In this document: positions 2,752 to 57,530 of the stretch, one piece after another
Layout: the number at the start of each line of letters is the position of its first letter
How positions within the stretch are numbered: the first letter of the stretch is position 1
DNA from: an uncultured Bacteroidota bacterium
Lineage (GTDB): Bacteria > Bacteroidota > Bacteroidia > Bacteroidales > P3
Length of the DNA: 64,000 nucleotides
Reading direction: 5' to 3'
Assembly: GCA_902778925.1 (NCBI GenBank)
Contig: CACYZN010000018.1
Location: 124,001 to 188,000 of the forward strand
The notes under the pieces: generated by a model
The model's input: only the letters and a program-made list of their open reading frames with translations
The model's database searches: none
What the model was told of the DNA's origin: nothing
Program-made: the position numbers and the translations under genes

Positions 2752-2842
2752 GTTCTTATGTACTTCTTATGTATTTCTTATGTTGTATTTATGTTTAAAA
2801 CATAAGAAATACATAAGAAATACATAAGAAGTACATAAGAAC
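2752..2842. repeat. Family A 11-bp-unit palindrome, copy 1
   Basis: A 42-bp arm, 7-bp loop TTTAAAA (2794-2800) and 42-bp arm. The left arm is four 11-bp steps: GTTCTTATGTAC, TTCTTATGTAT, TTCTTATGTTG, then TATTTATG; the right arm is the complement with its innermost copy less degenerate. It lies between the divergent genes pyrE and atpD, so it is not placed as a terminator. It is flanked by CCGG-containing sequence (TTCCGGTCCGC on the left, TACCGGG on the right), as other copies are. Confidence 0.9.
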
Positions 2843-2880: not shown

Positions 2881-2913
2881 TTTGCACGGTATTGAAAAAT
2901 ATTTGTATCTTTG
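2881..2913 (+). promoter_or_regulatory. atpD promoter
   Basis: TTTG at 2881-2884 and TATCTTTG at 2906-2913 with a 21-bp spacer match the Bacteroidetes housekeeping promoter. The -33 box begins 38 bp after the end of the family A palindrome. The leader to the atpD ATG is about 35 nt and A/T-rich without a Shine-Dalgarno sequence. Confidence 0.75.
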
Positions 2914-6355: not shown

Positions 6356-6446
6356 GTTCTTATATCGTTCTTATGTATTTCTTATGTTGTATTTATGTTT
6401 AAAACATAAGAAATACATAAGAAATACATAAGAAGTACATAAGAAA
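6356..6446. repeat. Family A 11-bp-unit palindrome, copy 2
   Basis: Same design as copy 1: arms 6356-6397 and 6405-6446 around the loop TTTAAAA. The outermost left unit is altered (GTTCTTATATC). It lies between two genes of the same direction, in a 386-bp gap between the solute-binding protein and the next lipoprotein gene. The 47 bp after it (6447-6493) match those after copy 4 at 57275-57321 at 43 of 47 positions. Confidence 0.9.
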
Positions 6447-13306: not shown

Positions 13307-13393
13307 GTTGTACTATCGTTGTACTATTGTTGTACTATCGTTGTACTATCGTTCTTATGTTTTCAATAGTACAACGATAGTACAACAATAGTA
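13307..13393. repeat. Family B 11-bp-unit palindrome, copy 1
   Basis: Four left units at 13307-13350 (GTTGTACTATC, GTTGTACTATT, then GTTGTACTATC twice), a 14-bp centre GTTCTTATGTTTTC (13351-13364), and two full plus one partial complementary units (AATAGTACAAC, GATAGTACAAC, AATAGTA). The centre is a piece of the family A unit. It sits in the 483-bp gap between divergent corA and the secreted-protein gene at 13580; the left flank carries CCCCTCCGGTC, seen beside other copies. Confidence 0.9.
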
Positions 13394-13436
13394 GACCGAA
13401 GAAAACAACCCAGTATTTCAATGTGCATGCATTTTT

Positions 13437-22165: not shown

Positions 22166-22256
22166 GTTGTTCTATCGTTGTACTATTGTTGTACTATCGT
22201 TGTACTATTGAAAACATAAGAACGATAGTACAACAATAGTACAACGATAGTACAAC
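22166..22256. repeat. Family B 11-bp-unit palindrome, copy 2
   Basis: Four left units at 22166-22209 (first GTTGTTCTATC, then GTTGTACTATT, GTTGTACTATC, GTTGTACTATT), centre GAAAACATAAGAAC (22210-22223), three right units to 22256. The centre is the exact reverse complement of that in copy 1, so the element is inverted here. It lies between the codirectional porin and rdgB genes. A 'CCACCGGAACCGGA' flank repeated twice follows. I see no clear promoter between it and rdgB. Confidence 0.9.
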
Positions 22257-34741: not shown

Positions 34742-34839
34742 GTTGTACTATCGTTGTACTATTGTTGTACTATCGTTGTACTATTGAAAACATAAGAACG
34801 ATAGTACAACAATAGTACAACAATAGTACAACGATAGTA
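34742..34839. repeat. Family B 11-bp-unit palindrome, copy 3
   Basis: Left units at 34742-34785 (GTTGTACTATC and GTTGTACTATT alternating), centre GAAAACATAAGAAC (34786-34799), right units from 34800 to 34839. Same orientation as copy 2. It lies between divergent rprY and hppA. The left flank, read on the minus strand (about 34741 down to 34703), is GACCGGAGGGGAAGGGG followed by AGGGGATGGCTGGCGGAT, matching the family A flank at 6447 and 57275. Confidence 0.92.
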
Positions 34840-41121: not shown

Positions 41122-41128
41122 CATCGTC

Positions 41129-41300
41129 AAAAAGGTTGATGGTCTGCCGTGTGCGGACAATAGGGAATCGCGTGCAAATCGCGAGCTGTCGCGCAACTGT
41201 AAGTTCCCGCCAAGAGTGGTGCCTTATGCCATTGGAAGCATGATTTCCGAGAAGGCGCGCCACAGAAGGGAGAAGCCAGGAGACCTGCCATCGACCGGGG
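41129..41300 (+). ncRNA. Cobalamin (adenosylcobalamin) riboswitch
   Basis: The conserved core is clear: TAGGGAATCGCGTGCAAATC, then GCGAGCTGTCGCGCAACTGTA at 41161 onwards, and the B12 box AGCCAGGAGACCTGCC at 41274-41289. The order and spacing fit the cobalamin aptamer. Downstream, AAAAGCCAC (41319-41327) can pair with GTGGCTTTT (41368-41376) to form a large hairpin without a T-run, a candidate expression platform. The controlled genes are nrdD and nrdG, starting at 41432. Binding of adenosylcobalamin should lower their expression. Confidence 0.92.
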
Positions 41301-41431
41301 ACAATGCTTTTCGCGTCAAAAAGCCACTGTCAATCATACCATATTGGTGCCTTGGTGCACATGAATGGTGGCTTTTGGATGACGAAAGCCCAGAGTGAAA
41401 ATGTATGTGTAAACAATAAAGATATAGCGCA

Positions 41432-45333: not shown

Positions 45334-46581
45334 TTAGAACTCTTCGTTCACTTTATCAATACGATACACCTTGTCGCCCCGACGCAGCATCTTGGTGGTG
45401 GCGAAGCTGAAGCGGTCGCCTTGATGCACTTCGGGCACGGGGTCGCGGTCGGTCCGCAACTCTTCTATCGTGGCACGGTAGACACCGGTGGTCTCGCCTA
45501 TCACCATCACCTCGTCGCCCACATGCAGGCTTTCGGCGGTCTGCATCTGCACCTCGGCCACGCCGATGCGGCCGAAGTAGTTGCGCACCAGGCCTAGGAA
45601 CACCTTCTGCTCGGTAGCCTGACTGCCGTAGCGGTCGCTCCACTCGCCAAGCCGTCGGCCAAGGTAGTAGCCGTCCCAGAAACCACGGTTGAACACCGTA
45701 GCCAATCGGTTGGTCCACTGCTCGATGCGCTCGGGGGTATAGGTGCCTTGGGCAATGGCTTCGACGGCCTCGCGGTAACACTCGACGGTGGTGCGCACAT
45801 AGTCGGCACTGCGCCCGCGACCCTCTATCTTCAGCAACCGCACCCCGGCACGCACTATCTTATCTAGGAAGCCAATGGTGCACAAGTCCTTGGGCGACAT
45901 AATATACTCGTTGTCAATCTCCAACTCGAGGTCGCTCTCTTTGTCCTTCACAATGTATCCACGGCGGCAGAGCTGCAGGCAGGCGCCACGGTTGGCCGAG
46001 TAGTTGTAGTTGTCGAGCGAGAGATAGCACTTGCCGCTCACCGACATGCAGAGCGCGCCGTGGGCAAACACCTCGACCTGCACCAGCTCGCCCTTCGGGC
46101 CACGTATGTCGTTGGCTTCGATATAGCGGGTGATTTCCGCCACCTGTGCCAGCGGCAGCTCACGGGCCAGCACCATCACGTCGGCGAAGCGTGCATAGAA
46201 GCGCACAGCCTCGACATTGCTCACATTGCACTGGGTCGATATATGCACCTCCACACCTAAAGCATTGCAATAGGTAATCACCGCCATATCACTGGCTATC
46301 ACCGCCGTAATACCTGCAGCCTTAGCGGCGTTCACCAGAGTGTGCATTGCCTCGATTTCGGCGTTGTAGATAATAGTGTTTACGGTGAGGTAGGTGCGCA
46401 CACCGGCAGCCTGAGCGGTAGCCACAATGCACGGCAGGTCGTCGACGGTGAAGTTGGCGGCGCTGCGCGAGCGCATGTTCAGCTTGCCCACACCGAAGTA
46501 TATGGCGTCGGCGCCGCCCTGCAGGGCGGCGCTGAGGCTCTCCCACGACCCCACAGGGGCCATAATCTCTATCTTATTCAT
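45334..46581 (-). CDS. Peptidase U32 family protein (TrhP-like)
   Basis: A 415-residue protein. The N-terminal U32 domain has 'IEIMAPVGSWESLSAALQGGADAIYFG' and the family signature 'EVFAHGALCMSVSGKCYLS' (about 168-186), followed by cysteines in GACLQLCRRGY that fit the iron-sulfur-like cluster of this family. A C-terminal beta-barrel extension is present (residues about 330-415). Members such as TrhP/YegQ take part in tRNA uridine hydroxylation; others are called collagenases. The tRNA role is the better guess. It overlaps the hydrolase gene by 4 bp. Confidence 0.85.
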   Translation of the reverse strand: MNKIEIMAPVGSWESLSAALQGGADAIYFGVGKLNMRSRSAANFTVDDLPCIVATAQAAGVRTYLTVNTIIYNAEIEAMHTLVNAAKAAGITAVIASDMAVITYCNALGVEVHISTQCNVSNVEAVRFYARFADVMVLARELPLAQVAEITRYIEANDIRGPKGELVQVEVFAHGALCMSVSGKCYLSLDNYNYSANRGACLQLCRRGYIVKDKESDLELEIDNEYIMSPKDLCTIGFLDKIVRAGVRLLKIEGRGRSADYVRTTVECYREAVEAIAQGTYTPERIEQWTNRLATVFNRGFWDGYYLGRRLGEWSDRYGSQATEQKVFLGLVRNYFGRIGVAEVQMQTAESLHVGDEVMVIGETTGVYRATIEELRTDRDPVPEVHQGDRFSFATTKMLRRGDKVYRIDKVNEEF

Positions 46582-48215: not shown

Positions 48216-48323
48216 AGGCAACTTGTTTTGTTTCTCTCGTAACGACGACGCGAGAAAAATATTGTGTCGCCATGCGGCAAAAAATGGCGTTTTCAAGCCT
48301 TCCCCTAGCCTTCCCCTCCGGTA

Positions 48324-48414
48324 GTTCTTATGTACTTCTTATGTATTTCTTATGTATTTCTTATGTTTTAAACATAAATACAACATAAGAAATACATAAG
48401 AACGATATAGAAGG
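48324..48414. repeat. Family A 11-bp-unit palindrome, copy 3
   Basis: Arms 48324-48365 and 48373-48414 around the loop TTTTAAA. This copy is inverted relative to copies 1, 2 and 4: the degenerate inner unit is on the right (CATAAATACAA) and the outer altered unit (GAACGATATAG) matches copy 2 read on the other strand. It lies in a 419-bp gap between divergent genes. The left flank has CCCCTCCGGTA. Confidence 0.9.
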
Positions 48415-56926: not shown

Positions 56927-57021
56927 CGTCACTTGTAACGCAACATCTCGACTATTATTATACACCCCGACGATTTTTTTTCCATCTCCTTTCCAATTTC
57001 TATCTTTCAATCATCAATTCC

Positions 57022-57171
57022 CACCTATCACCTTTCACCTATCACCTTTCACCTCACTCCTCTCACCTTACGATGAATATCGAATTTCGAACTTCGAATT
57101 TCGAATTTAGACTCTCCCCTTCCACCTCTCACCTATCACCTCCCACCTATCACCTATCACCTTTCACCTCT
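57022..57171 (+). repeat. 7-bp-period array next to family A palindrome
   Basis: Seven 7-bp units at 57022-57070 (CACCTAT, CACCTTT, CACCTAT, CACCTTT, CACCTCA, CTCCTCT, CACCTTA), then four CGAATTT-like units at 57081-57108, then seven more CACCTNN units at 57123-57171. The array ends 12 bp before the family A palindrome copy 4. The unit matches that at 1866-1995. Confidence 0.8.
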
Positions 57172-57183
57172 CCCCCTCCGCCC

Positions 57184-57274
57184 GTTCTTATGTCGTTCTT
57201 ATGTACTTCTTATGTACTATTTATGTTTAAAACATAAGAAATACATAAGAAATACATAAGAAGTACATAAGAAG
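57184..57274. repeat. Family A 11-bp-unit palindrome, copy 4
   Basis: Arms 57184-57225 and 57233-57274 around TTTAAAA. The left outer unit is GTTCTTATGTC, so the arm differs slightly from copies 1-3, but the 42/7/42 layout is kept. It lies between divergent genes (transglycosylase and DegP-like protease). Confidence 0.9.
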
Positions 57275-57530
57275 TACCGGAGGGGAAGCGGAGAGGATGG
57301 CTGGCGGAGCTGGTTGTCAGGCGGTTACGAATGGGTCAAAAACCAGCCGAAATCTTAAATCCTTTAAGGTTTAAGTTAAATAGGGTTAAAACGGCCGCCT
57401 TGTAGGCTGCCGGCACCGGCGATGGATGGTGGCGGACGGGGGGCCGGATTAACATATTTTATCACTCGTCAGGGCAATAAAGGAGGTGATATTTTGTTAC
57501 AACGGTAGTATACAAAACACAAAGCCTACT
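57275..57530. other. Conserved repeat flank and degP-like leader
   Basis: 57275-57321 is the conserved flank shared with 6447-6493. The next 150 bp hold A/T-rich stretches with TTTAAGGTTTAAG and a CCGGCACCGGCG run, with no gene found. AAAGGAGGTGAT at 57479-57490 is a full match to the 16S rRNA 3' end, but lies about 40 bp before the ATG of the protease gene, too far to be its ribosome site. No good TTTG/TAnnTTTG promoter is visible. Confidence 0.5.

Follow-up and report, generated by a model that had tools for sequence, protein, structure and literature searches.

The window, meaning the whole 64,000-nt stretch that was analysed, lies on contig C18 of the genome of an uncultured gut bacterium of the Bacteroidales (G000; 2.23 Mb in 54 contigs, 93% complete), and the gaps between many of its genes carry 91-bp palindromes (Table 1). 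The sequence-only reading of this DNA had described four such copies, which we call family A, as sharing exactly the same layout, with a 42-bp arm, a 7-bp loop of T and A, and a second 42-bp arm, each arm being a tandem array of an 11-bp unit. All four are found at the positions given for them, each with the 42-7-42 layout and a loop that reads TTTAAAA or TTTTAAA. Their left arms are indeed 11-bp arrays, matching themselves at lag 11 in 25, 24, 29, and 27 of 31 positions. While the layout is thus identical, the arms are not perfect, with 38, 34, 31, and 35 of the 42 positions pairing. The one copy that had been called inverted (the third) has its core on the forward strand, and the other three family A copies have it on the reverse strand. 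The set of four stands as a family, but the layout is not confined to it. Seven places in the window show it with at least 30 pairs, and the additional three (family B) have the core in common with family A and a different unit. Nor is 91 bp the limit of the element, since C-rich flanks beyond the arms keep the 11-bp step. The palindromes are part of something larger than four 91-bp copies.

Table 1. Palindromes, flanks, and a promoter-like box in the window; the strand of each copy is the strand that carries its core.
Feature	Position	Strand	Setting
Family A copy 1	2752..2842	-	Divergent gap, phosphoribosyltransferase-domain gene / ATP synthase alpha/beta family gene
Promoter-like -7 box TATCTTTG	2906..2913	+	Precedes ATP synthase gene, outside copy 1
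Family A copy 2	6356..6446	-	Codirectional gap following SBP_bac_5 gene
Family B copy, unit GTTGTACTATC	13307..13397	+	Divergent gap adjoining CorA gene
Family B copy	22166..22256	-	Codirectional gap, Porin_10 gene / Ham1-like gene
Family B copy	34742..34832	-	Divergent gap, response regulator gene / H_PPase gene
C-rich flank of copy 3	48299..48323	+	Same 11-bp step as the arm
Family A copy 3	48324..48414	+	Divergent gap preceding DUF349 gene; inverted copy
Family A copy 4	57184..57274	-	Divergent gap, SLT/LysM gene / trypsin-like/PDZ protease gene
C-rich flank of copy 4	57275..57300	-	C-rich on the - strand; inverted repeat to the copy 3 flank

When folded as single-stranded DNA, the seven window copies gave z scores from -8.2 to -13.2 with no shuffle as good; for the four family A copies, z was -13.2, -8.2, -8.2, and -9.8, each against 200 dinucleotide shuffles. 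At the element, no named Rfam family scores as high as its curated cut-off, which agrees with the earlier statement that no described element of this design was known. Copy 1 gave 34 weak matches, mostly to microRNA hairpins and all under the cut-off, and the one match above it over the window was to a cobalamin riboswitch elsewhere (41123-41306, 102.8 bits). A 7-bp minisatellite (CACCTAT/CACCTTT, 56984-57175) directly adjoins copy 4.

The 11-bp step, about one turn of the DNA helix, had been singled out as the key property, and this is what lasts, since it recurs within the genus while the unit changes. When oriented by the core, family A has several TTCTTATGTAY units running into the centre, which then return inverted. 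The facing half-units are separated by a dyad spacing of 5 bp in 31 of 32 family A cores and of 16 bp (5+11) in 26/26 counts for family B. In two other genomes, G095 and G116, the spacing is either 5 or 16 bp, bar 2 of 55 counts in G116; among ten loci of other species, five fit, two have 15 or 4 bp, and three show no pattern match. The step extends into the flanks. Over 58 bp beyond the family A arm (49 copies), the match at lag 11 is 0.469, compared to 0.26-0.37 at other lags, and the G116 flanks (n = 29) give 0.466 at lag 11 and 0.41 at lag 22, compared to 0.25-0.34 at other lags. A GTAG ahead of the family A arm is in step with the array units as well.

How abundant are these elements in the source genome? 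The core pattern CTTATGTTTTMAAYA has 146 exact matches in G000 (74 + 72), with 0 for the reversed control, and the tandem pattern has 385. In the window, a 19-mer tandem unit searched with up to two mismatches has 19 matches, with 0.00 expected. Decayed copies seem rare in the 438 kb of G000 over which profile searches were run, because these gained at most one weak place beyond the exact cores. Element density is 100/Mb in these stretches, which are contigs picked for known cores with element-rich ones included, compared to 66/Mb over the whole genome. The near-identity of 146 cores in one species means that some copying process is required, and small, dispersed, near-identical copies outside genes (67 placed copies lie in intergenic gaps) are what characterizes a MITE. 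Some elements hold two cores close together (C5:46282/46307, within 46282-46321, and C8:82748/82804, within 82748-82818), which suggests slippage or recombination inside copies. In G095, contigs C1, C2, C6, C8, C9, C10, C11, C15, C16, and C17 start 4-84 bases from an array unit; the repeats therefore probably break assemblies, and copy numbers are perhaps underestimated.

The elements show a marked preference for the gaps between divergent genes. Using gene calls from our own script, which gave 340 neighbouring pairs in the 438 kb of G000, we found an element in 28/34 divergent, 2/33 convergent, and 14/273 codirectional pairs. When restricted to gaps of at least 100 bp, the counts are 28/32, 2/8, and 14/57, respectively (p 3e-9), but the unfiltered pairs are the safer count because the element lengthens its own gap. 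On the window's contig, 13/15 divergent, 5/29 codirectional, and 1/5 convergent gaps have an element, and in the window itself all five divergent gaps do. With 23 extra loci added, 67 copies could be placed, 43 of them in divergent, 22 in codirectional, and 2 in convergent gaps; in codirectional gaps, 18 of 22 cores are oriented against the genes (p 0.004). The elements of G116 are distributed similarly, with 12 divergent, 4 codirectional, none convergent, and 1 at an end (12/16 placed are divergent), as are those of G095, with 11, 4, none, and 1 (11/15), where the loci added for these two genomes are the first among the places listed for TTCTTnnGT arrays and L163, which repeats C1:32725, is not counted for G095. 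The divergent-gap preference is seen in three species. For 11-bp arrays of any sequence, G004 has them in 2/22 divergent vs 9/55 codirectional gaps, and G016 in 1/12 divergent, 2/52 codirectional, and 2/11 convergent gaps.

Two separate elements were never found in one divergent region (0/32, with cores <300 bp apart merged), although 7.0 such cases are expected under a Poisson distribution with the observed mean. The elements lie upstream of promoter-like boxes. TAnnTTTG is the Bacteroides -7 consensus, and 73 of 108 sides have such a box facing the gene, with 78 gene-facing boxes vs 12 facing away. These boxes sit outside the elements, beyond the arms, 52 of the 78 gene-facing ones being 75-200 bp from the element centre. 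Among 100 cores listed, spacing has a CV of 0.63 vs 0.88, and gaps <3 kb number 0 vs 14.4 expected. Regular core spacing was nevertheless dropped as an independent signal, since a null that places sites in divergent gaps gives the same CV (0.449 vs 0.463), this null being saturated, since 44 sites share 26 such gaps.

The search in other genomes that the sequence-only reading had proposed did uncover elements of the same design within the genus, with differing units. A relaxed array pattern, TTCTTnnGT, has matches in 17 of 99 genus genomes, G000 included, and in about six of these the number is clearly high. Counts were 228 in G000, 147 in G116, 87 in G095, 77 in G023, 57 in G100, 19 in G001, and 14 in G087, and 1-7 in ten further genomes, of which those with 1-4 are not above the reversed control (up to 5 matches per genome). 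Among the places listed for this pattern, array units are species-specific, and further unit types exist. The exact core has no match in 36 congeners and one match each in three of the 24 genomes searched from other families, while the tandem pattern with one mismatch allowed is found in 3/120 genus genomes, G000 included. No viral contig bearing the exact unit pair was found. G004 has a further dispersed palindrome, made up of TGTTAATAGATGTTAAAC and its inverse, which recurs at L073 7131 and 15535 and at L074 14749.

When arrays of any sequence were counted, leaving out runs of N, which give false arrays, lag-11 array places numbered 77 in G000, 11 in G116, 10 in G095, 4 in G016, 11 in G004, 5 in G001, 2 in G002, 0 in G021, and 10 in 20 other congeners. 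None was found in 253 kb from 20 genomes of other families, samples that are small (up to 20 kb each) and lower in G+C (0.40 vs 0.47-0.59). Control lags 13, 17, and 19 gave no array in any sample, and three samples had two arrays apiece at lag 10. Several genus samples also show raised counts at lags 7 and 14; in G004, G001, G002, G021, and the 20 congeners, lag 7 equals or exceeds lag 11. Between genes, lag 11 is the top lag other than 3 in 5/5 genomes, with lag 22 second in 4/5, whereas coding sequence in the five measured genomes peaks at multiples of 3 only. The lag-11 peak is absent from the convergent gaps of G116, G004, and G000 and from the divergent gaps of G016, in which lag 11 is outside the six highest lags. 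In G020 and G111 (L144 and L152), an 11-bp array lies in what by eye looks like the coding sequence of a putative regulator and may be unrelated to the palindromes.

Corresponding promoters in different genomes were also compared. An 11-bp array precedes the DUF349 gene in 16 of 74 loci at a threshold of 18/24, with units that mostly differ (similar ones occur in L233/L234 and L244/L291); the controls reach 6 loci at lag 7, 4 at lag 14, and 0-2 at any of the remaining lags between 8 and 19. The 74 loci, some of them from outside the genus, are drawn from 80, with L267, L279, L301-L303, and L230 (<200 bp upstream) omitted, and most records come from uncultured Bacteroidales, many of their titles naming a rumen or gut sample. 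Identity in the DUF349 protein is 79% for the best relative, and we found no close genome in which an empty site could be aligned. At three promoters chosen beside G116 elements, 4, 7, and 6 of 11 genomes reach 18/24, some weakly and with the G116 source counted, and control lags do so in 3/33 upstream regions; in this comparison, the region upstream of the first gene is 179 bp in G023 and that of the second gene 78 bp in G095. The strong arrays have differing units and are mostly found 170-300 bp from the start codon; the second of these promoters bears no array in G000 itself.

Dispersed palindromes in bacteria are usually explained as transposase leftovers or as RNA hairpins. Tandem 11-bp iterons in two arrays are also a feature of the parC/ParR centromere of plasmid R1, which is a single plasmid segregation site, in contrast to the many promoter sites here. 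In open-licence literature, no published description of elements like ours was found in titles and the starts of abstracts. Within the order, the nearest counterpart in published accounts is BrickBuilt, a MITE of Porphyromonas gingivalis with a leader, a 23-nt direct tandem unit, and a tail, which has 19 copies and 4-bp target duplications at two sites (PMC4596501). Like the palindromes, it is species-limited, always intergenic, and a tandem repeat within a MITE-like unit, but it is not a palindrome of 11-bp arrays, and when we tallied the strands given in its Table 1, just 2 of 19 copies lay between divergent genes (PMC4596501). The GTAG/CGTC REPs that are paired with RAYTs are likewise high-copy, often species-specific, and mostly intergenic palindromes, but the excerpts describe short stems of 5-13 bp with a four-base tag, which the 42-bp arms do not resemble, and a preference for unidirectional and convergent gaps (PMC3733652) that is the opposite of what we see; moreover, G000 has no Y1 transposase match. 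CarH offers a precedent, since its operators are tandem 11-bp direct repeats at promoters and are bound on one DNA face, but they consist of a few repeats at carotenoid promoters rather than a dispersed palindrome (PMC9304148). The presence of CarH-like MerR proteins does not discriminate, since nine of ten genomes have matches whether or not they carry the element, and G016 has none.

The explanation that we tentatively favour, at somewhat short of even chances, is that the element is a function-bearing site at which a putative protein assembles on the DNA, one unit per turn outward from the dyad. The element would act as DNA and not as RNA. Half-sites of ~9 bp face each other across the 5-bp dyad and recur outward every 11 bp, a one-turn step that would place all units on one face of the helix, the C-rich outer units following in the same step. 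A sequence-specific protein would nucleate on the dyad and bind cooperatively outward, and the resulting assembly might separate or regulate two divergent operons. The repeat would spread by copying, each lineage homogenising its own unit. Such an assembly would account for the step and the spacer, for the phasing of the flanks, and for the sequence being free to vary. Several findings speak against it, however: the unit changes quickly within the genus, two unit families coexist in G000, G004 and G016 lack the divergent preference, and lag 7 rivals lag 11 in several samples.

The main rival, a real possibility in its own right if a somewhat doubtful one, is that the element is a selfish non-autonomous repeat (MITE/REP-like) with no host function, which would have proliferated in the species and persisted at places where it breaks up no transcript and no promoter, surviving mainly between divergent promoters. 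Near-identical dispersed copies are expected from such an element too, and several observations fit it: 146 exact cores in G000 and none in 36 congeners, a high copy number in some species only, the few codirectional and convergent pairs that are occupied (14/273 and 2/33), and the close core pairs at C8:82748/82804 and C5:46282/46307. On the other hand, a selfish hairpin has no need for the 11-bp and 5-bp geometry, and both the missing double occupancy of divergent regions (0/32 vs 7.0 expected) and the orientation bias in codirectional gaps (18/22) speak against it. The evidence on transposases, for which only the Y1 family was searched, is divided. PF01797 (Y1, RAYT-type transposase) matches in the carriers G116 (1), G023 (1), G100 (1), G001 (7), and G012 (3), but has no match in G000, even though this genome is 93% complete, nor in G095 and G016. 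Of the 16 genus genomes searched, 11 have it, these five high- or low-copy carriers included, and its absence from G000 led us to reject a Y1/RAYT protein only as a general requirement.

If the palindrome alone mattered, the element could form a cruciform absorbing negative supercoils between divergent promoters. Strong self-complementarity and the placement between divergent genes are consistent with this, but a cruciform needs neither the 11-bp tandem step nor phased flanks beyond the arms. It also fares poorly in the test for compensatory arm changes that the sequence-only reading had called for. In 49 family A and 20 family B copies, no compensation was detected, since cells changed on both sides number 45 in family A, compared to a mean of 51.3 with shuffled partners, and 9 in family B, compared to 25.7, and broken cells are no fewer than in the shuffles. 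This test used the best-scoring register, which is one unit off that of the first reading and pairs up to 61 positions with flanks counted. Against the refuting condition set in that reading, which coupled uncompensated arms with copies confined to this genome, the outcome is mixed, as elements of this design do occur in other genomes. With power limited by low variation, the uncompensated arm variation speaks against base pairing, in RNA or in a cruciform, as what selection acts on, and we consider a cruciform improbable. A device acting in RNA, whether a hairpin terminator, an mRNA stabiliser, or a C-rich Rho loading site against antisense transcription, is more improbable still: although the four stretches tried give stable RNA folds, the C-rich flank is on one strand, and the 18/22 bias would fit a Rho site whose reading direction is away from the gene downstream, the copies are probably untranscribed because 43/67 lie between divergent genes with promoter-like boxes beyond the arms, and neither compensatory changes nor an Rfam match above cut-off was found, which leaves the long RNA hairpin of the earlier reading disfavoured.

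Returning to protein assembly on DNA, function and mobility are not mutually exclusive. An extended form of this explanation, which we regard as possible but rather unlikely, is that the elements are genus-wide promoter-insulating nucleoprotein sites, in which selection would keep the geometry of 11-bp helical step, 5-bp dyad, and inverted arrays, while every species would exchange its unit sequence wholesale alongside a DNA-binding protein that co-evolves with it. In the present species, almost all divergent promoter regions would then be marked with a code of its own. If the element is selfish instead, its choice of target, or its survival, would be strikingly limited to divergent promoters. 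The recurring property is the helical-turn spacing, kept while the letters change, and since the same geometry occurs with different letters in some relatives, this may be an undescribed promoter-side DNA element. If a protein reads that geometry, the genus would offer a series of natural experiments in which the DNA code has been changed under a fixed architecture.
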